Assembly: GCA_030141605.1 (NCBI GenBank)
Contig: JAQGDQ010000723.1
Coordinates: 1-64,000 of the forward strand
Source: Tubiluchus corallicola
Lineage: Eukaryota; Priapulida; Priapulimorpha; Priapulimorphida; Tubiluchidae
Direction of reading: 5' to 3'
DNA length: 64,000 nt
The notes under the pieces are model-generated. The model did no database searches and was not told where the DNA came from. It was given only the letters and a program-made list of their open reading frames with translations. Made by a program: the position numbers and the translations under genes. Of this stretch, positions 1,129 to 52,900 are shown one piece after another; position 1 is the first letter of the stretch; every line of letters starts with the position of its first letter.

Positions 1129-4100
1129 GTTTGAACTTCATCTGAAAATGGCTTGTCCAGCGTCCAGCCAGCCAGTGGATAAACCTTGTGTGGAGAGCAT
1201 GCCCACATTAATCTACAGTGGACCGAGCTTAAAGTTCAATTTGACGGGTCTCACGCCGTACACTAACTACCTTGTTCAACTGCTTGTGCATACTAAAGCG
1301 GGAACTACTAATTCTACCTGGCAACTTTTTACGACAAGCTCTGCAGGTAAGTTAGTGTAGCTGGTTTCAAACATTTGCTTGCCTGTGTGTTTTCAAATGC
1401 ATTTCTATGGCTGTTTGTGCCTGTCATAATAAGATGAGGCTTGCCATTTAATATATAAAGAAATTGTATTTATTATTGCTAAAATATTAAAATGGAATAA
1501 GACTTTTCTTTCGAATGATGAGAAGCATTTAGAAGGCAACAAAGAGGAGAAGTTCTATTGACATAGTCGTTACCAGACCTTCTCATTGCTTGTCATCCTT
1601 GTTAAAAGAATTCTTATTGGCATGGTCCTGGTTAGATGTCTTATTCACATGATCTTTGTTAGAAAGATTCTTGTAGGTACATGTTTGTTAGGAGACTTTT
1701 TATTGACACTGTTCTTCTTGGAGTAATTTTCATTAGCTGGTCTTTAATAGGAAAATTCTTGTTGACATGGTCATTGTTAGACAAATTCTTGTTGGCATTG
1801 TCCTTCTTAGAGCAATTCTTATTAGCTGATCTTTAATAGAAAAATCCTTGTTGACATGGTCACTGTTAGACGAATTCTTGTTGGCATTGTCCTTCTTAGA
1901 GCAATTCTTATTAGCTGATCTTTAATAGAAAAATCCTTGTTGACATGGTCACTGTTAGACGAATTCTTGTTGGCACTGTCCTTCTTAGAGCAATTCTTAT
2001 TAGCTGGTCTTAAAAAGAAAAATCCTTGTTGACATGGTCATTGTTAGACAAATTCTTGTTGGCATTGTCCTTCTTAGAGCAATTCTTATTAGCTGGTCTT
2101 TAATAGAAAAATCCTTGTTGACATGGTCATTGTTAGACAAATTCTTGTAGGCATTGTTCTTCTTAGAGCAATTCTTATTAGCTGGTCTTTAATAGAAAAA
2201 TTCTTGTTGACATGGTCATTGTTAGACAAATTCTTGTTGACACTGTTCTTCTTAGAGCAATTCTTATTACCTGGTCTTTAATAGTAAAATTTTTATTGAC
2301 ATGGTTGTTGTTAGACGAATTCTTGTTGGCATTGTTCTTCTTAGAGGAATTCTTATTAGCTGGTCTTTAATAGAAAAATCCTTGTTAACGTGGTCACTGT
2401 TAGACGAATTCTTGTTGGCATTGTCCTTCTTAGAGCAATTCTTATTAGCTGTTCTTTAATAGGAAAATCCTTATTGACATGGTTGTTGTTAGGTGAATTC
2501 TTGTTGGCACTGTTCTTCCAAGAGTATTCGCCCAATCATTGAGGCAATGGGTTTGGAGTTCAAATCCAACTGTCGACACACTTGTCAGATTGTAGTTTTA
2601 GTTTCCCAGCGTTAGCTGGTAATCTTACTTGTTGATTTGTAACTAGCGAAAGTCTGTAATAATAATAACGTACAATGTTGCTAAGTCTGTAAACGTGCGA
2701 ACTAACACTGCCTATTTGTTTTAGCACCGGAGTACATAATGACACCGTCCATCACTGTAAATGAGCGAACGTTGGTATTGGACTGGTCAAAATCATTCAG
2801 ATTAAATGGTCAGCTTCATCAGTATATCTTATATACTAATGGCTATAAGACTTATTCCGGTTTTGGAGAACAATCGACGCTCGTCCGAGAAAATTTGAGC
2901 AAAAGCAAGTATTTTATTGTTTGTCTTTGTATAACCGCGGTGTTTTATATATCAGTGGGTTGATGAAATGTGGATGCGTTTTCACGTGTGGATGAAAATT
3001 ATGTAAAAAAACATAGGTATTAAATTTTCTTTACCATTTGAAAGTTTTAGTACTTTCTCTGAAAAGGGACAGTTTATAATCTAGCATAGCGACGATTATA
3101 GAGACGAATAGTAAATTGTTTGAGAATCAGCATTGACCCTGATCCACAAATCTAACTCCATTTTTACATTCTGTTCCCTTTATCTGTTCTGATTGGCGAG
3201 TGAAATAATATTGTGATGAAGTGATGTATGCTCTTTCTTTTTCTGCGCTTCCATTTCTGCTATTACAATGATTTGTATCTGATTTTTTAAGTACGTTGTA
3301 TTTTCAGAATACACCATAATGGTAACGCTGATAACGCACGTTGGAAATGTGTCTTCTGACCCAGTCACATTCGACCCGGAGATACACACGACGTTAAAAA
3401 CTGCAGTTGGCGGTAAGTTGAACATTTTTTAACATTTTTCTGTATTCGTGTCTTAATTAATAGCAGCAAATCGTCTCCCATCTCAGTTGTTGTGCCCCAA
3501 TGTTTTTAGCTTGGCTTTGTAATTGCTCAACTAGTCTAAGTTTTTCATTAGTACACATATAATCGATTACCAAATTACGCTTTGCTGTCTGTTGTCTCCC
3601 AGAAACTAGCTTTTCATTGCTTATAATGGTCAACATTTTTTTGTGTTCTTTAAACAGTTTGGAACTCTGTTACTCAGGCTACAGCAATTAATGGTCAGAC
3701 CAATGATATCTAAATGGTTGAGGCTGAGCTGACGCTTAGTTGATAGTTAAAAATAGTCTTCTAAAATGAGGTACTAAAACTGTAAGGACCTCTTCTGGAA
3801 GCCTGTGTTAACAAAATATACATCTGGTGGCCATATGGCAGACTGAATTGCTGAAAAGTATATATCCTGACAGTGACCCATCTGCTGACTGGACAGGCTT
3901 AGGATTGCTTAATCTTTATCAAAGTCATGATATCTGGATTTAGGTTGTCCTCGCAAATACTTTTCTTTGCCATGTTTGTTAATTAATTAACATTTTGTCA
4001 TTTAACTAATTCATATACATTTTTACAGGCACGGTATACGTCGGCACTCCTAAAATCACCAGCCCTCCTGTGACGACGACTACGACCGTAGCACCTAAAC

Positions 4101-7007
4101 CCATCATCGCATACTTCAAGGAAACTTGGTTTATTGTGCTCATGTCATTGTTGGGTGTAATGTTAATCTTCATCATCCTAGCTTGTTGCTTAAAGAACAC
4201 TGGACACAGATCTCCGTACCAGCGAGAGCGACTTCCTCTACCTCCAAAGCCTCAGCGGCAACCCAAGCTGTGGCCAGAATCGTATCCATGTTACGACAGT
4301 ACCATCGGCTATGTGGTAAGTGTAGTAAGCATTTCCCTCGGCTGACAACATGTATATGTTCCTTATTTTACACATGTGAAATTTCTATCATCGTGAATTT
4401 TATATTATTAATTTAGGAACCTCCGTATGACCAGGGCTACAATGTCGCAAAGGGCGATTATCCGCAAGCGTTTAATCACTACGCAAACCACGCATATGAT
4501 CAGGGATCATTGGTCAGTTTGTCGCCAAGTTTACCAGTCAACCAGACTGGCAGATTTCTGCTGGACGAAGATGATGACTTGGCTTGGGTGGATCGACTCA
4601 GTAGCGTGCATCCCGAAAGCTTGGTAATTAGCCATGTAGCATAATTGAGTAGTAAATAACTTGGTAGTGTGCATCTTGAAAGTTTGGTAAGTAGCTATGT
4701 AGCATAATTGAGTAGTAAATGACTAGGTAGTGTGCATCTTGAAAGTTTGGTAAGTAGCTATGTAGCATAAGTGAGTAGTAAATGACTTGGTAGTGTGCAT
4801 CTTGAAAGTTTGGTAAGTAGCTATGTAGCATAAGTGAGTAGTAAATGACTAGGTAGTGTGCATCTTGAAAGTTTGGTAAGTAGCTATGTAGCATAAGTGA
4901 GTAATAAATGACTCTGTAGTGTGCATCTTGAAAGTTTGGTAAGTAGCTATGTAGCATAAGTGAGTAGTAAATGACTAGGTAGTGTGCATCTTGAAAGTTT
5001 GGTAAGTAGCTATGTAGCATAAGTGAGTAGTAAATGACTCGGTAGTGTGCATCTTGAAAGTTTGGTAAGTAGCTATGTAGCATAAGTGAGTAGTAAATGA
5101 CTAGGTAGTGTGCATCTTGAAAGTTTGGTAAGTAGCTATGTAGCATAATTGAGTAGTAAATGACTCGGTAGTGTGCATCTTGAAAGTTTGGTAAGTAGCT
5201 ATGTAGCATAAGTGAGTAGTAAATGACTCGGTAGTGTGCATCTTGAAAGTTTGGTAAGTAGCTATGTAGCATAAGTGAGTAATAAATGACTTGGTAGTGT
5301 GCATCTTGTAAGTTTGGTAAGTAACTATGTAGCATAAGTGAGTAGTAAATGACTAGGTAGTGTGCATCTTGAAAGTTTGGTAAGTAACTATGTAGCATAA
5401 GTGAGTAGTAAATGACTCGGTAGTGTGCATCCAGAAAGTTTGGTAAGTAACTATGTAGCATAAGTGAGTAATAAATGACTAGGTAGTGTGCATCTTGTAA
5501 GTTTGGTAAGTAGCTATGTAGCATAAGTGAGTAGTAAATGACTCGGTAGTGTGCATCCAGAAAGTTTGGTAAGTAACTATGTAGCATAAGTGAGTAATAA
5601 ATGACTAGGTAGTGTGCATCTTGTAAGTTTGGTAAGTAGCTATGTAGCATAAGTGAGTAGTAAATGACTCGGTAGTGTGCATCCAGAAAGTTTGGTAAGT
5701 AGCTATGTAGCATAAGTGAGTAGTAAATGACTAGGTAGTGTGCATCTTGAAAGTTTGATAAGTAGCTATGTAGCATAAGTGAGTAGTAAATGACTCGGTA
5801 GTGTGCATCTTGAAAGTTTGGTAAGTAGCTATGTAGCATAAGTGAGTAGTAAATGACTCGGTAGTGTGCATCTTGTAAGTTTGGTAAGTAGCTATGTAGC
5901 ATAAGTGAGTAGTAAATGACTCGGTAGTGTGCATCTTGTAAGTAGCTATGTAGCATAAGTGAGTAATAAATGACTAGGTAGTGTGCATCCTGAAAGTTTG
6001 GTAAGTAGCTATGTAGCATAAGTGAGTAGTAAATGACTCAGTAGTGTGCATCCTGAAAGTTTGGTAACTATGTAGCATAAGTGAGTAGTAAATGACTTGG
6101 TAGTGTGCATCCTGAAAGCTTGGTAAGTACTGTTGAACAGCATGTAACTTAGCAGCATGCTTCTCTAATATTTGATAAATATCATGAGTAAATGCCACAT
6201 TGCCACAACTTAATAATGCCTGCTGTATGAAACTAAAATATAATAATGAAAGAGAAGAAAATCAGAAACTAATTACTTTACCCAATCAAATCTAATTTAG
6301 ATGGAAAATTTATTATTTACTTTTAACTTTGAGCTTCACAACACACTGCTTCATAATTGCTACTAGTCAAAATCCAGAAAATGTTTGCTCCTTACTTTAA
6401 GAGTCAGTGCTTTGCTTATATTATCATTTCACACACAGACCTAATTTGCCATTAATGTAACAATTATTTTACTTAAATTTAGCCGTGCAGTTACAATGTT
6501 ACTTGGTTATCGATTTTATTCAAAATTACTGCTAATTCAGTAGATTCGTAAGAAGCCTTATCAGAGATTTCATAGCCGAATTTGGCAGCATTTAATTTTG
6601 GCACAATAAAAATAAGGTTGCCTTGGACAGCATTAAAAATAAATGCTGGCATGTAGACATGTAGAAAAAAACTTTTGCTGCCATGATTAGTTTAGTATTT
6701 TAGTGAGATCAATGCAAATGAAATTACAGAGAAGCTACGTACATTATCAAATATTAATTAGCGGGCAGCAACGCTTGTAGGTATTTTCTTGCAGTTTAAA
6801 TGCATAAGCAAGTTACTCACCATTTTGAACCAATAATTTTTCTTACATTTAAAATGTTCATACATTCAGCCATTTTATACATTTTGTTGTATGTAGATTT
6901 GCCTACTTATTTTTCAGCTGGATGATGATTTGTACAGCACAGTGCGCAGTCATCCGTACAGTATTACACACAAACAACATCAGATTTTTCCAGACTCTCA
7001 CCTCTGA
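1129..7007 (+). CDS. USH2A: Usherin-like receptor, C-terminal part (6 exons; gene continues off the left edge)
   Basis: Exons 1129-1346, 2725-2904, 3308-3412, 4029-4315, 4417-4623 and 6918-7007 join in frame into 361 residues ending at TGA 7005-7007. In order: two or more fibronectin III modules (exons 1-3); a Thr-rich linker; a transmembrane segment (WFIVLMSLLG to LACC, exon 4); a basic juxtamembrane YQRERLPLPPKP; an acidic tail with YDQGSL; and the end FPDSHL, a class I PDZ ligand. Vertebrate usherin has the same order, a near-identical WFIVLM membrane start, a related RERPPLVPL tail and a DTHL end. In vertebrates usherin is a giant ankle-link/periciliary adhesion receptor that binds whirlin and harmonin PDZ domains. 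Oddities: the intron after 2904 needs a GC donor, and the donor after 4623 is the first unit of a 63-bp tandem array. The N-terminal bulk of the protein lies outside the window. Identity is strong for the tail; the exon joins are inferred. Confidence 0.88.
1540..2525 (+). repeat. 89-bp minisatellite in an usherin intron, about 10-11 copies
   Basis: Units of about 89 bp, made of four related blocks of about 22 bp (TTCTTGTTGGCATTGTCCTT, AGAGCAATTCTTATTAGCTG, TCTTTAATAGAAAAATCC, TTGTTGACATGGTCATTGTT). The left edge is diverged and the middle copies are very alike, as expected for an array that grew from shorter units. It is not coding. Confidence 0.9.
2519..2600 (+). mobile_element. Possible tRNA-like SINE remnant
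   Basis: GGAGTTCAAATCCAACTG resembles a Pol III B box. It follows the end of the 89-bp array. No clear A box or target duplication was found, so this is a weak call. Confidence 0.2.
4596..6130 (+). repeat. 63-bp minisatellite built from an exon/5' splice-site junction, about 25 copies
   Basis: The first unit (4596-4658) is the real end of an usherin exon (codons LSSVHPESL, to 4623) plus the first 35 bases of its intron. It is followed without a gap by units of exactly 63 bp at 4659, 4722 and onward, with shorter units near 5930-5990 and 6060-6100. Most units carry the donor-like string TTTGGTAAGTA where the true exon has CTTGGTAATTA. The last unit (about 6097-6130) has the exon-like GAAAGCTTGGTAAGTAC. 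Reading on from the exon meets TAA at 4642, so the array itself is not coding in the usherin frame. The unit length is a multiple of three, so a long uninterrupted frame also appears on the - strand; it is a by-product of the repeat. Confidence 0.95.
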
Positions 7008-12500: not shown

Positions 12501-15500
12501 CCCGGCAGGTACTTCAGAATTTTTTTTAACTTATAGAGTGAGCTATTGATTGAATGACTAATTTCTAGATAAATACAGTTAAACACAACATTAGAATAAC
12601 AGAACTTCAAAGCAAACTGTAGAAATTTTGCAATGTGTACCTTCACACAGCTTGCCTTCATGGCATTCACGCTGCAAAGCAAACACCAACTTACGTCATT
12701 TTTTTTCAAATATGCTGGCATCAACATTCATTTGGCGGGAGATAAGAAATATTTAAATGTGTTTTACATTTTTCACAAAGCATTCTGTGCGCATATTTTG
12801 TATTGTGATTTATTGTATTGTATATTAATTGTATATTAAAATGGAATAAATGTTGTTCGAAGGTTGGTTCTTCCTTTAATATTCCGACAAATGAGAGTAG
12901 AAGTTGATAAGATTCTTTTACTGGAGTTAAACCTGCTCTATGCCTGCCAAAGATTTTTAACCTATCCCACTATTTGAAGACCTGCTAGTGACTAATATAC
13001 AGATGGTACCAATGCTATCAAAAACTTATCACATCATTCAACATAAAGCAATGGCCTACTGCATAAGCATAGAGGCCATAATGTCCTTGCAATTTAGACA
13101 TAAATTCAGCTACAATACATGGAATGCATTGCAGAATGAGTGTTGACAATTTCAAGTACATGTTAACAGTAGCCATAACTGACTTGATGAAACTTGCATC
13201 TTTCTGTGTTGTTACCTTTTCTGCTAAATCGCCATTGACCTGCACATTAGAGACTCCATTTTCGGTCAAAAATAAATGCACAAAATGAGATCCCTTTGTC
13301 GAGTTACAGAATACGATGACGGGCTTTTTCTTCTTCGCATCAGATTTAGTTAACTTAAGCAGTTCTTCTAGTCGATCTTCAGCATGAAGACGAATGAATT
13401 TCTGTGCGACGTGCGGCATTACGCGGTGTAAATGTGGACCCTCGACTTTCACTAATGAATCTACCTAAAATATTCGACGATGATTATTACGAACGAACTA
13501 ATATCGTCATTAGTTCATGAGGATTTTTACCCAAACAATTTTTTATACAAATCACCGTATCAATGCCAGTAGGTCACTTAAGGCTGTGAGTCCACTCTCT
13601 CTCTCTGACCTGCACAAAATGACCAAGGCTGAGAGTGTGAGTCCACTCTCTCTGACCTGCGCAAAGTGACTGAAGCTGAGAGTGTGAGTCCACTCTCTCT
13701 GGCCTGCGCAAAGTGACTGAAACTGAGAGTGTGAGTCCACTCTCTCTGACCTGTGCAAAGCAGCCGAGGCTAAGAGTGTGAGTCCACTCTCTCTGACCTG
13801 CGCAAAACAACCAAGGCTAAGAGTGTGAGTCCACTCTCTCTGACCTGTGCAAAACAACCAAGGCTGGGAGTGTGAGTCCACTCTCTCTGACCTGCGCAAA
13901 ACAACCAAGGCTAAGAGTGTGAGTCCACTCTCTCTGACCTGCGCAAAACAACCGAGGCTAAGAGTGTGAGTCCACTCTCTCTGACCTGCGCAAAACAACC
14001 AAGGCTAAGAGTGTGAGTCCACTCTCTCTGACCTGTGCAAAACAACCAAGGCTGGGAGTGTGAGTCCACTCTCTCTGACCTGCGCAAAACAACCAAGGCT
14101 AAGAGTGTGAGTCCACTCTCTCTGACCTGCGCAAAACAACCAAGGCTAAGAGTGTGAGTCCACTCTCTCTGACCTGCGCAAAACAACCAAGGCTAAGAGT
14201 GTGAGTCCACTCTCTCTGACCTGTGCAAAACAACCAAGGCTGGGAGTGTGAGTCCACTCTCTCTGACCTGCGCAAAACAACCAAGGCTAAGAGTGTGAGT
14301 CCACTCTCTCTGACCTGCGCAAAACAACCAAGGCTAAGAGTGTGAGTCCACTCTCTCTGACCTGTGCAAAGCAACCAAGGCTAAGAGTGTGAGTCCACTC
14401 TCTCTGACCTGTGCAAAACAACCAAGGCTAAGAGTGTGAGTCCACTCTCTCTGACCTGCGCAAAACAACCAAGGCTAAGAGTGTGAGTCCACTCTCTCTG
14501 ACCTGTGCAAAACAACCAAGGCTAAGAGTGTGAGTCCACTCTCTCTGACCTGCACAAAGCGACTGAAGTTGGGAGTGTGAGTCCACTCTCTCTGACCTGT
14601 GCAAAACAACCAAGGCTGGGAGTGTGAGTCCACTCTCTCTGACCTGTGCAAAGCGACTGAAGTTGGGAGTGTGAGTCCACTCTCTCTGACCTGTGCAAAG
14701 CGACCAAGGCTAAGAGTGTGAGTCCACTCTCTCTGACCTGCGCAAAGTGACTGAAACTGAGAGTGTGAGTCCACTCTCTCTGACCTGCACAAAATGACCG
14801 AGGCTGAGAGTGTGAGTCCACTCTCTCTGACCTGCGCAAAGTGACTGAAGCTGAGAGTGTGAGTCTACTCTCTCTGACCTGTGCAAAGCAGCCGAGGCTA
14901 AGAGTGTGAGTCCACTCTCTCTGACCTGCGCAAAACAACCAAGGCTGGGAGTGTGAGTCCACTCTCTCTGACCTGCGCAAAACAACCAAGGCTAAGAGTG
15001 TGAGTCCACTCTCTCTGACCTGTGCAAAACAACCAAGGCTGGGAGTGTGAGTCCACTCTCTCTGACCTGTGCAAAGCGACCAAGGCTAAGAGTGTGAGTC
15101 CACTCTCTCTGACCTGCGCAAAGTGACTGAAGCTGAGAGTGTGAGTCCACTCTCTCTGGCCTGCGCAAAGTGACTGAAACTGAGAGTGTGAGTCCACTCT
15201 CTCTGACCTGTGCAAAGTGACTGAAGCTGAGAGTGTGAGTCCACTCTCTCTGACCTGTGCAAAGCAGCCGAGGCTGAGAGTGTGAGTCCACTCTCTCTGA
15301 CCTGCGCAAAGTGACTGAAGCTGAGAGTGTGAGTCTACTCTCTCTGGGCTGTGCAAAACAACCGAAGCTGAGAGTGTGAGTCCACTCACTCTGACTCTCT
15401 CTGAAGCTAAGAGTGTGAGATATGTGAAAGTACCGTAAAAAAAGTAAAAATTACACTGAAATTATAGAACAATGAAAGTTAACAGTGAATCATTCACATA

Positions 15501-28375: not shown

Positions 28376-28975
28376 ATTTTATTTTTGTTTAACGACAAAA
28401 GGAGCCAGCAAAACTGGTGTATATTTGGCTAATATTATTGCACTTATTATATATAAGTACTGAATATTGCTTCCTGTTACGCCTTATTACTAAATGTTAA
28501 TATTTCTTAATTTTATCTCCTAATATGTCTTTGCAGTAGAATCACATGACTTCTACTCCAACAATCACTAAAAATCGTTCTGCGATTGTAATGGAAACTT
28601 TCTATCAATAACATATATTGTTGGATGTTTTGGTAACAGTCTTTTTGATTAAATGAACTAGCGTTTATCACCAATCCTGTAGTGTATGCATTTTGTTTTG
28701 CATATGTTAAATGCAAACTGGTTGAATAGTCGAATTTAAACAGATAAATTACATATTACACATATTTGTGTGTTATTTATAATGATACGAATCTTCAAAA
28801 GTATGTTAACTATTGCATTTATTAACCTATTCTGGTTTAGTAGTATTTACTATGCAAAGCAATCCTCCCTTTTCTACATATTTTTTCTGCTTTTCAGACA
28901 TTTTGCAGCTGAACCTTGCAAATATTTTCCCGTTTCGATTTTTATTTCACTTCACTGCTACTGCTTTACCTAAAG

Positions 28976-30988
28976 ATGGCAAAACCACCACCAGCACAAT
29001 GGATGAATGCACCAGCCACAAAAATTCCTAATTGCCCTCCTGGTTTGGAATACCTGACTCAGATAGACCAGCTTCTAGTCCATCAACAAATTGAAATTCT
29101 TGAAGCCTTCACTGGCTTTGAAACTGTCAATAAGTATGCAGTCAAGAACAGCATGGGCCAGCAGATCTACTTTGCAGCCGAAGATACGGATTGTTGCACA
29201 CGTATGTGCTGCGGTCCTTGCCGAGCTTTTCAAATGAAGATCATGGATAACACGGGGAACGAAGTGCTGCATGTGCATCGTCCACTCCGTTGTGACAGTT
29301 GTTGGTGTCCTTGCTGTCTGCAAAAGTTGGAGGTTAGCGCACCCCCAGGGAATCTCATTGGTACCGTTGAGCAGGAATGGTCTATCCTGTTTCCTCGATA
29401 TCGCATCTGCAATGCATCGGGAGACACGATGCTACGTGTCCGAGGTCCACTTTGCACCTGGAGCTGTTGTGGAGATGTGGAATTTCAGATCACTTCGGCA
29501 GATAAGGATCATCAGGTTGGACGGCTGACCAAGCAATGGACAGGCCTAGTCAAAGAAACGTTTACGGATGCGGATAATTTCGGAGTGACCTTTCCTTTGG
29601 ATCTGGATGTCCACGTAAAGGCGTGTTTGCTGGCTCTGACTTTTCTCATTGATTTCATGTTTTTTGAGAAGAGTCAGAATAAGGAGACTGATGCTCCAGG
29701 TATGTTACACTAGTCATACATTTCTCTACTACATTTTGTTGCACAGAGACTCGCAGCAATGGCAGTGGATAACGGGTGTTTGGACAATCGGGTGATGTGG
29801 CTAATTTGTCATTATCTAATAACAAACAGAAATCATTGACAGCGATAAGCTAATCGAATTAGTGATTGCTGATTAGAAACAAATTCAACTGTGTCTATTC
29901 AATTCTACTATGATCAATGATCTGAAAACAATGACTCATTAATGACTCATTGTTTGATTGTCTCATTTTTTGATAAAATTCTGCTTACGGGGAATTACCT
30001 AAATTGACTCACACAAACTATGTAGTCAAAATTTGTCAGCCTATGTGAATAAATTATAATAAATGATGACATTATTACCAATGTTAATTTAAAAAGGGCA
30101 GTTTCTTAAGTGTGACGTGTAATCAATATTTATGAAATGGAATAAATGGCTTGTTGGTTAGACTCTGATTAAATGCAAAACAATGTGATAGTTTGTCCGT
30201 TAAATCGATTATGTTCAGCTTTTGACGCCATGTATATGTTTCACTAGACAACTCATTATCCGTTGCCATTGCTGCATTTAAGTATGAACACACCTTTAAT
30301 CACTTAGGTGTTACATGTAAGTAGGGAAATAGAATCACCTCTTTTAAATTATTCATTTTTGATTGAAAATGTTCTATTATCTATGAAATGTATATTAATC
30401 GTTATTGTGTACATGTGCATGTCTGTATTCTTCATCTATAAATATCTTTCGATACATACGACTTCAGATGTATTTTTCGAACTTACCATTTGCACTTTTT
30501 ATTGAATTTCCCTTGTTAATATAACGTCCAACAGTCCTTATACATAACATATAGATCTATACAGGTATTATACACGTTTCAAGTACAGTAATGTGTTAAG
30601 AGTGAGCAATATTTAAAAGAGCTTGCATATCTTTGATAATGATGTATTATAGTAACCTTCACTATGTGTCTTATCATAAGTAATAGATTTTGTGTATTAA
30701 TCATTAATTATGTAATATGTATTTTAGCTTTCGAATGATTAATTTACTCATATAAAAGCATGCAGTAGTATGTGTTTAGGTTTATTATAATGAATCGACA
30801 GCCAGTATTTTGACTGTAGTGCTATAAAACGTTACATATAGTGTAATATTTTCCCGATTTTTTGCCAGGAAACAAAGGTTTGACATGTGCATATTATTTT
30901 GTTACAATTATGAACGATATAATTTTGTATACAGTTTTCTAATCCTGTGTTAAATGTTGTAGAAACTCAGAAGGATCCGGACGCGTAA
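28976..30988 (+). CDS. PLSCR: Phospholipid scramblase (probable two coding exons, 249 aa)
   Basis: ATG at 28976 opens a frame through 29699, where CAG|GTATGT is a near-ideal donor. An acceptor (GTTGTAG, ending 30962) joins in phase to codons TQKDPDA and TAA at 30986-30988. Without splicing the protein ends GMLH at 29713 (245 aa). Scramblase hallmarks: CWCPCC palmitoylation cluster (109-114), HRPLRC, CSCCGD-like SCCGDVEF (163-170), the calcium-binding segment DADNFGVTFPLD (198-209), and a single C-terminal membrane helix ACLLALTFLIDFMFF (about 216-230). The family mediates calcium-dependent lipid movement and signalling at the plasma membrane. The N-terminal proline-rich region is short compared with vertebrate PLSCR1. 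Pyrimidine-rich sequence ending CTAAAG directly before ATG (or TTTTCAG at 28890-28900) could be an acceptor for a 5' UTR exon. Which of the paralogues it matches cannot be decided. Confidence 0.94.
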
Positions 30989-43867: not shown

Positions 43868-44020
43868 TGTGTTATCATTGTGCTTTTGTTAGTATTGTGC
43901 TTTTGTTATCATTGTGCTTTTGTTATCATTGTGCTTTTGTTAGTATTGTGCATTTGTTAGTATTGTGCATTTGTTAGTATTGTGCTTTTGTTATCATAGT
44001 GCATTTGTTAATATTGTACT
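43868..44020 (+). repeat. 17-bp tandem repeat, about 8-9 copies
   Basis: Units alternate TTATCATTGTGCTTTTG, TTAGTATTGTGCTTTTG and TTAGTATTGTGCATTTG. Confidence 0.9.
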
Positions 44021-44610
44021 TTTTTATATTATCGTCCCCAGTATGTTTCAGCCGCTCCATCATATGTACAGGGTCAATGCTTTTTTTCTCTTTATGTTGC
44101 ATCCTCAATAAACAAACAGTATATGTGTTTAAACTGTCTGCAAGTCACAATATAAAGGGCTTATTATAGAGAAAACATGTGGCTAAACGTTTTGCAAGTG
44201 AAACAAAGAAGCCAAGACCAAACGAAAAAAGTAATATTTCCTTGAACTATTTGCAAGTCACCAACAGGAGGTCTAACGGGACGATTATTCTTACATTGTT
44301 AAACCTGTCTGCAATTCTGTGTTGAATTTTCTATTTAAGACACCTGCGTACGTAGATTAAAGATTTCTAATCCACATTGTTGAGGGAAGTGGATAATAAG
44401 AGCTCCTCGACTTGTAAAAGTTCATTTCATACTGAGCACATCTCTAGAGCGTCCAGAGTACCAAACTCCAAGGACCTGCCAAGAGTCCGCAGCTGACCAT
44501 GCCATCTTAACTCGGATCCAGGAAGGGATACTCCGTAAGTTGAAAATGAGGGCCATGTGTCTAATTTGTGTTTTTTAGGTAGAAAAACGCTAACTTTTGT
44601 CCCGTAAAAA

Positions 44611-45015
<405 letters not shown>

Positions 45016-49900: not shown

Positions 49901-52900
49901 TTCTCTTACAACGAGACGCAAACTAAATATGGACTATATCTAAAATAATTTTACAATGTAGTATCCACTACCTATGGCTTAGAATTATTTTTTATTATTC
50001 AACACCAATAAAATTAACTTCAAACTCCAGCTTGTAAGCAAATGGCTTAAGCTGTAAAACCAGCGCTTTTTGTTATAATTAGATTATAACGTAAATGCAG
50101 GTAAAATCACATTATACAATGAAAATCTTAGTAGTTTAATGTTATATTAAAATAAAATTTTATTGTTTAGTTGCTTAATTACCTGTGTTGTTGTCTATTT
50201 ATTCATACATTTGTCTGTCTGTGTGTCTGTCCATCCATCTATTCATCTATCTATCTGAAGTCTATCACTGCTAGCGCGTATGACAGCTAGGTCTTACACT
50301 ACTGTTACTTTGAACGAAGATAAACGCCAAACGTTATTATAAACAATTGCTTACAGTGGTATAGGCCTAATACCTGACGAATAACGTACTTATTTAGTTA
50401 GCTAATTAGGCCTACAGGCTTGCATTTTTGCTGAAGTTTTACCTATGCTGGTCTGATTGCCTATCATTATTATAAAGTACTTATGCACGTAAATGTGTAC
50501 GCTATTAAATTTAGGATTATTCTGTCACATTAAATATAAAAATAGCAGTTCATTTATTCCCTCACAATAATTGTATATGTAATAGCATTACATGCTTCCT
50601 CGCACTGTGAGACGCGTGATCCTAGATTTATCTGTTTACGACTGTTTGTTTGTTTGTTCATTAGGTTACAATCCCTATACCTCCCCGTATTCACTGGTCA
50701 GCGAACTGACAGGCAGATCCTCAAAACGAAAGAGAAGACACCGGACAATATTCACTGAAGAGCAACTGGAGCAACTAGAAAACACATTTGACAAGACACA
50801 TTACCCCGATGTATTGCTCCGCGAGGAACTAGCTGCAAAAGTAGATCTGAAAGAAGAACGAGTGGAGGTGAGTCAAAAGCTTAGCTGATTTGAAAAAACA
50901 AACACGTGACCCAATAATTTGGAGCACTTGGTAATTGGGAATTTTAGGAGTTGTTCGAAAAATGACACCAATAGCTCAATGGTAGCGTGCTCGCTTCTCA
51001 CTCGGGAGGTCACTGGTTCAACTGCCAACCGAGTCTGGCCAAACTTGAAAAATGATACGCCAGGTTCTTCGGCCAAGCACGCGGGCTTATCGAAGTAACA
51101 TGTGGGGAAATAATAATCGGTACGACCTTGGTAATAAATAATGTGTTACTTTAGGCATTATCTTAATCATTAAATCAATTATTTAACTTCAGCAGTACAT
51201 ATACAAAACCACAACATGCAATATGATTAGAAAAAAACCAGTATAGGTAAAAACACTAATGAAGTCATATTAACCAAGAGCATATGCAATACCTCTCGAC
51301 TATGTCCTTATGATGATAATGACCAGAAGTAGCTGTGATATCTTTGTATGAACATCAAGTAAGTTAAGGAAGTTTGAATTGGTTTAAGCAGCGCACGCTT
51401 ACGGAAAGCCACGATCGGCTTACGAAAAGTCACGAAGTTCACAAGTTACAACACAAATTTGAGGTGAATGGAGGCATCCACCGCGCATGAAAATTTCTAT
51501 ACAACAGTAGTATAAAAGACTATATGCTTTATAGATAGTTTTTGTGCAAATTTAGGTAATGAACTTTAGGTAAGCTACAGATGTTTGAATTAGTGTAAGC
51601 TGTCGGCACTTACGAAAAGCCAGTTGCGTTTGCAAAGAATCGCGAAGTCCACCAGTTACGTCATAACTTTCAACTGATGGCGACGCCACCGTGCTGAAAA
51701 TTTCTATAGTGCCATAGTGTAAAATCACTTTCTAGACAATTTTTTCGCCATTCTGTTTGTTACATTTTTCTATATTTAGGTGATCATAGTAAAATAAACC
51801 CAACATGCTAAATTACTTGTCTTCTCCTTTAATAACATCGCATTTGTCACCTTACAGCTCAACTTCTGATTAAAAGCTGATCTGAAATTTGCTAAATTAG
51901 ACGCTTTTGTGCAAAGCGTAAAATAGGTGAAATAACATCGTCAGTGTGAAAAGTAATGCGTGACACTGGTACTGCCTGAAGGTAACTAAGCAATCACGTA
52001 AAGGTATGAATTAGGTAGCTAGGATCCAAAGCAACAAGAGGCCATTTTGAATGCTGAAATAATTAATCTTGACTTGATTAACTTACTCAAGTGTGATGTA
52101 CGATCTTGTTGCATAGAAAAGATTATCTGCAGATATCATAATATACGTTTTACGTCACTGGGTTTCATTTTAAGACTTTGAGAAATTAAGTAAATTTCCT
52201 GTTCTAATTTAAAATTTCTAGACTACCGATGAACAATATATTTAAATTTACTTCTAGGACATGTAATAAACCTGTATAAACTAAACAAATAATCGAAAAA
52301 AAGAGTAAGCCCCATCAAGTAACTAAAAACAGACGAGAAATTAAAATGTTTAATAGATCATCACTTTATTGCATTTTAGACCCCCCCCCCAAATTCATGC
52401 ATTTTAGATACCTAAATTCAATGTTGAAAAATTATGTTTGCATTGTGATTCAATCTAGAGTACAAGTAAGAAGTAAAAATTATACAACACGTCTTAATTT
52501 AAAGTAGAACACATATCTCAAATCAATGGTGAAAATATTTTGTCAATAAAATATTTATGTGATAAATGTCTTAGCTAAGAGTAGGGCGAAAATATGAAGT
52601 TTTTGTAAAGTAAGTGCAGTATTGTGATTCAGTTTACGGCTATATCACGTTGAAAACACCGGTTCTCGTCTGATCACCGAAGTTAAACAACGTAGAGCCT
52701 GGTTAGTACTTGGATGGGTAACCACCTAGGAATACCAGGGGCTGTAGGCTTGCGGGATGCCCACACTGTATCTCGACACTAAGCGGAGGAGCTGCACAAG
52801 CAGCCAACGGCTAGAGGGCAGAGGAGGTCAAGTGACCCAACGGCCATGTGTAGAGGAGTAAACCTTCCAAATCAGGAGTGGAGCCCCGAAGACGGACCAG

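Follow-up and report, generated by a model that had tools for sequence, protein, structure and literature searches.

A 63-bp minisatellite spanning a putative exon-intron boundary of an usherin-like gene in the priapulid Tubiluchus corallicola

What does a gene do with some 25 copies of one of its own exon ends? In Tubiluchus corallicola, the 3' border of a predicted penultimate coding exon is also the first unit of a minisatellite, and most of the later units carry a better-looking 5' splice site than the border itself. The locus therefore raises a simple question: is the array a splicing switch, or a repeat that the gene tolerates? We analysed a stretch of 64,000 nucleotides (positions 1 to 64,000 of contig JAQGDQ010000723.1; hereafter the window), which contains the 3' end of the gene. 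There, a single frame joins six exons through putative splice sites:

1129-1346, 2725-2904, 3308-3412 and 4029-4315, plus strand: four upstream exons, with FN3 sequence, a hydrophobic membrane-like segment and a proline-rich tail
4417-4623, plus strand: penultimate coding exon, 207 bp, phase 0, ending ...HPESL (open frame, putative splice sites)
6918-7007, plus strand: last coding exon, ending DSHL, a class I PDZ-ligand-like C-terminus

The predicted product comprises FN3 sequence, a hydrophobic segment that by eye resembles a membrane segment, and a proline-rich tail ending ...FPDSHL; the DSHL end presumably belongs to the class I PDZ-ligand motif class. Only fn3 exceeds the Pfam cut-off (E 5.4e-6), and a search of the PDB returned weak FN3 and chance matches (best E 0.0089). 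Usherin itself ends in DTHL. Its FN3 domains and its binding of whirlin through a C-terminal PDZ motif are described in PMC2873905, and chicken ADGRV1 is printed with a DTHL end (PMC5896214). The usherin architecture of FN3 repeats, one transmembrane segment and a cytoplasmic tail with a C-terminal PDZ ligand is matched by the features predicted here, in a gene of which only the 3' end lies in the window. The predicted gene fits the 3' part of usherin, short of proven orthology. Homology searches with the tail, whose length limits left out full-length usherins, returned none of 1382 candidates at E 0.001 for a 361-aa query and none of 26 at E 10 for a 166-aa query. Exon 2725-2904 has an apparent GC donor (AAA/GCAAGT) at 2904, and an upstream intron entirely contains an 89-bp x 9.4 minisatellite (1685-2518).

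The penultimate exon would be bounded by the acceptor atattattaatttag/GAACC and the donor TTG/gtaatta, and phase, open frame and the DSHL end together place its end at 4623. The original prediction had put an array of about 25 copies at this exon end, with unit 1 as the exon/donor junction and both halves of that junction copied in the later units. Tandem Repeats Finder recovers such an array, 63 bp x 24.6 with 93% matches. When the units are split at a GTGCATC anchor, which occurs 25 times in the array, once per unit, the copied junction stands; the proposed division into 28 exon and 35 intron bases becomes 29 and 34.

4595-6129, plus strand: array, 63 bp x 24.6, with an exon end and donor in each copy
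4595-4657, plus strand: unit 1, the authentic exon end (4595-4623) and the weak donor from 4624
4658-6129, plus strand: 24 later copies

The exon part of unit 1 reads GACTCAGTAGCGTGCATCCCGAAAGCTTG (4595-4623) and is followed by GTAATTA. Both halves recur in the 24 further units, whose starts follow one another every 63 bp, apart from shorter steps of 54 bp after unit 22 and 59 bp after unit 24. Unit 22 has a 9-bp deletion that leaves the context CTT/GTAAGT, unit 24 also has a deletion, and unit 25 is partial, ending after GTAAGTA. Long arrays are often misassembled, and a copy number created by the assembly would be compatible with any account of what the array does; the units nevertheless carry distinct variants, and we consider an artefact extremely unlikely. 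The boundary-spanning structure of the units is in any case independent of the count and holds whatever the true copy number. The antisense strand of the array (4628-6037, minus strand) reads as an uninterrupted 469-aa frame of 21-aa repeats, which a 63-bp unit would probably produce mechanically.

Arrays of this type had been thought undescribed, a claim that three published cases contradict. In lancelets, two papers describe ‘mirages’, tandem copies of an exon-intron boundary that resemble minisatellites and in many cases include splice signals, in the globins BflGb6 and BflGb9, with Adh3 and TnC cited (PMC3087553); PGBD5 extends the set, with TnC and Adh cited (PMC3902484). Both papers report that units at the cluster edge escape homogenisation and that mirages do not interfere with regular splicing, while the former allows that copies may act as cryptic sites. 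Here too, tandem units each span an exon-intron boundary, albeit a putative one. The counts given there for mirages are 2-7 units (a single duplicate in BflGb9; no count for Adh3 and TnC) of 60-160 bp (10-72 bp in Adh3), compared with about 25 units of 63 bp here. The priapulid array is set apart by its roughly 25 donor copies, the additional donor-like series and the weakness of the authentic donor.

The second case is the 31-bp VNTR at exon 13/intron 13 of human CBS, c.1444_1467+7(16_21), with repeat alleles of 16-21 (PMC2630376). We read this name as 24 exon and 7 intron bases, donor included, in 16-21 copies. More units are reported to lower CBS activity and to go with higher homocysteine in a paper that also terms the repeat non-coding and describes the findings on CBS as inconsistent (PMC5188458); a table in another lists gene expression or enzyme activity as lowered, the entry bearing a question mark (PMC1395315). 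As in CBS, the unit here contains an exon end and its donor; the CBS unit is 31 bp long and belongs to another gene, and polymorphism and activity have been studied there, whereas our analysis covers the sequence alone. The third case, human IFI6 (6-16, G1P3), has a short repeat of 12 bp. Two of its downstream repeat units are used as donors, according to PMC4526556, which cites Turri 1995. In IFI6, as here, a tandem repeat supplies multiple donors at an exon end; those of IFI6 are reported as used, whereas the unit here combines an exon end with a 5' splice site that is plausible by sequence, with GTAAGT in 22 of the 24 later copies. Introns that arise from tandem arrays have reportedly been described by Zhuo (2007) and by Gao and Lynch (2009). 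Those arrays share with this one the duplicated splice signals, a raw material for new splicing, although no new intron is evident in the array here. Tandem donor arrays are thus already described, and an effect of array length has a precedent: this array is a new, large example of the known boundary-spanning minisatellites.

How strong are the copied donors? At the donor position, 22 of the 24 later copies read GTAAGT, the exceptions being unit 19 (ATAAGT) and unit 24 (GTAACT). We scored each unit with a donor matrix of approximate vertebrate frequencies and took U1 duplex energies as a second measure. The authentic donor scores 3.4 bits and -5.1 kcal/mol, while 21 of the 24 later units reach 8.3 bits and -10.5 to -10.7 kcal/mol, an advantage of about 5 bits and of 5.4-5.6 kcal/mol in U1 pairing. 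Unit 22 is moderately stronger than the authentic site (6.4 bits, -7.0 kcal/mol), unit 24 scores 4.2 bits and -5.0 kcal/mol, and unit 19 falls below it (-2.5 bits, -4.1 kcal/mol). Splice-site scoring of every unit, which had been suggested as a check, confirms stronger decoys in 21 units and unit 22. With decoys this much stronger, the first of them just 63 bp downstream, site strength does not predict use of the first donor.

A further series of donor-like sites was overlooked in the original prediction:

4771-6086, plus strand: second series, 21 GTGAGT donor-like sites

GTGAGT stands 21 bases past the donor position in 21 units and is absent from units 1, 2 and 9 and from partial unit 25; this series was counted by motif, outside the matrix scoring. 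Units 12, 15, 17 and 21 have an extra GTAAGT in the exon half. Altogether the array holds 26 GTAAGT and 21 GTGAGT, or 47 GTRAGT hexamers in 1,535 bp, compared with about 0.9 expected on one strand of such a stretch from shuffling of the window (about 76 GTRAGT per 64 kb, both strands). Acceptor-like sites within the array have at most 7 pyrimidines in 13 positions, against 8-11 in the six real acceptors, so internal exons in the array look unlikely.

The predicted consequences for the protein are uniform, because of a stop just beyond the authentic donor:

4642-4644, plus strand: in-frame TAA, reached with decoy use or intron retention

We modelled six donors (4623, 4686, 4749, 4770, 5316 and 6122), and DSHL is reached from 4623 only. 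All five modelled decoys instead end in ...ESLVISHVA, as expected from the proposal that decoy use would add the TAA at 4642 and lose the PDZ-type tail. The remaining decoys must give the same end, since the TAA lies upstream of them all. By derivation, a junction at unit 2 would lie 42 nt downstream of the stop, and one at unit 3 would lie 105 nt downstream of it. The 50-nt rule for NMD, if it applies in this animal, would thus expose transcripts to NMD only when the decoy belongs to unit 3 or a later unit.

Such a layout could work as a splicing rheostat, with decoys competing against a weak donor, array length setting the share of PDZ-tail transcripts and the decoys of unit 3 and beyond possibly triggering NMD. 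The 5-bit and 5.4-5.6 kcal/mol advantage of 21 decoys and the single truncated tail from all five modelled ones would suit this idea, as would the reported fall in CBS activity with more 31-bp units (PMC5188458; PMC1395315 with its question mark) and the reported use of two downstream IFI6 repeat units as donors (PMC4526556). It sits less well with the report that mirages with splice signals leave splicing undisturbed, or with the lack of a conservation signal in the decoy donor columns, and we judge it unlikely. A more specific version, a copy-number-tunable switch in which 47 GTRAGT sites face one weak donor and array length sets the PDZ-tail share, possibly varying between individuals or even somatic cells, strikes us as distinctly improbable.

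The conservation test used the 21 full-length units, with units 1, 22, 24 and 25 dropped, and compared windows of nine columns. One of the nine donor columns is variable, and 37 of the 63 windows (donor window included) have as few variable columns or fewer; by minor-base count, 17 of 63 are as low as the donor window or lower. The donor columns are therefore not unusually invariant and give no sign of selection for the decoys among these units, in a test whose power is low because the units are homogenised.

What do the units say about their own history? In unit 1, 5 of the 29 exon-half positions and 3 of the 34 intron-half positions depart from the consensus. Two CpGs in the exon half of unit 1 are both missing in all 24 copies; CCAG is found in three copies, CCTG in the three most distal and CTTG in 18. 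CpG decay from a unit-1-like ancestor would leave this pattern, and the exon half of unit 1 appears to fit the ancestral state best. In nine copies a CpG is present (CTCGG) at a site that reads CTCAG in unit 1, so change involved more than CpG loss alone. Mean identity is 86% between unit 1 and units 2-24 and 95% among units 2-24, and one C of unit 25 is otherwise present only in unit 1. Units at both edges thus show the mark of having escaped homogenisation, as in mirages, although coding constraint on unit 1 could contribute. Mean identities at even lags (lags 2-10; 0.955-0.967) all exceed those at odd lags (lags 1-11; 0.946-0.953), which suggests that the array spread as dimers.

The one change that sets the donor of unit 1 apart is at +5, where unit 1 alone has T and the later units have G, except for a C beside the deletion in unit 24. 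Most copies had been described as upgraded from the authentic donor. This direction is not established: the polarity is not fixed by the units alone, and a loss of G from unit 1 is no less likely, because G stands at +5 in all four donors further upstream in the gene, the apparent GC donor included. We lean towards a genuine site that was downgraded rather than copies that were upgraded. If the G-to-T change had decayed the genuine donor far enough, the main exon end could have moved into the array, and most of the protein would end ...VISHVA without a PDZ ligand. The G at +5 in every upstream donor and the T restricted to unit 1 within the array would be in keeping with such a shift, which we nonetheless regard as highly improbable, given that the last exon keeps an open frame, an acceptor with 10 of 13 pyrimidines and the DSHL end.

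The array also contains AATAAA in five units (at 4903, 5281, 5470, 5596 and 5965), through one G-to-A variant. U1 telescripting is an established idea, and an array with 47 GTRAGT and five AATAAA might recruit U1 to shield the intron from premature polyadenylation. We give this very little credence: a single G-to-A variant is enough to create AATAAA in so AT-rich a unit, and the signals to be suppressed would come from the array in the first place. Titration of U1 by the array is implausible, since U1 is far more abundant than the transcripts of one gene.

The array is not the only repeat in the neighbourhood. Tandem Repeats Finder reports five arrays with periods of 47-89 bp (80, 89, 63, 60 and 47) in the first 15.4 kb; a period above 40 bp is reported for just one further array of the window, at 43870-44027, as 51 bp x 3.1 and alternatively as 17 bp x 8.6. 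In a search for boundary duplications, 14 stretches, namely 13 boundaries plus the final exon's stop end, were compared with the window at E 1e-3; the donor of exon 4417-4623 alone had a match elsewhere. A 47-bp x 38 minisatellite (13599-15395, minus strand) lies in an intron of a DDX28-like gene, which matches DDX28 in the PDB (E 1e-14) across both flanking exons and has no Pfam match. Its units carry an acceptor-like TTTTGCRCAG/GT on the sense strand, for example TTTTGCGCAG; the real acceptor, with its exon start at 13464, lies downstream of them, and the boundary of this intron has no second copy within the window (E 1e-3). Splice-like motifs in arrays thus also arise without boundary capture. 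Elsewhere in the window are an AGT trinucleotide run of about 133 copies (44615-45013) and a 5S rRNA-like sequence (52632-52750; Rfam RF00001, 107 bits) that by eye has diverged from animal 5S and is perhaps a pseudogene or part of a transposon. A phospholipid scramblase gene (28913-29713) is a single open frame (Pfam 2.9e-89). Its best two matches have 96% and 77% identity, and, in the best 120 of 2099, named animals have 60-70% and no Branchiostoma is among the names.

So, is the array a switch? Probably not: we favour a boundary-spanning minisatellite that is tolerated and largely neutral, its decoys used occasionally, over a selected switch. A tandem duplication would have taken in roughly 29 bases of coding sequence from the end of the penultimate exon, along with its 5' splice site, and unequal exchange may then have expanded it within the following intron to a minisatellite of 25 units. 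The coding role would have stayed with unit 1, with the copies drifting as non-coding DNA and becoming homogenised. Any mRNA with the PDZ tail would have to come from splicing at 4623, the only one of the six modelled donors that leads to DSHL, and decoys would probably be used at a mostly minor rate, each giving a short tail without DSHL. For this account we count the array and its register, the CpG and even-lag patterns of the units, the unremarkable donor columns, the reports that mirages leave regular splicing alone, that exclusive route to DSHL and the four other minisatellites (80, 89, 60 and 47 bp) in the same 15.4 kb. Against it we count an authentic donor far weaker than decoys that begin 63 bp downstream, and the functional effects or real repeat-donor use reported for CBS and IFI6. 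Also counted against it are the nine copies with a CpG that unit 1 lacks, the cryptic-site option in the mirage paper and the human CBS 844ins68 allele, a 68-bp duplication of an intron/exon junction in which splicing is reported to favour the distal site strongly (PMC2630376), evidence against a simple first-site rule.

Whatever its role, the locus is a natural and unusually large test of donor choice, with one weak authentic site placed before about two dozen near-identical, stronger ones and a single readout, a PDZ-type tail or none. The array could reveal what governs the choice of donor, be it position, site strength or exon context, and boundary-spanning minisatellites may extend to another animal group.
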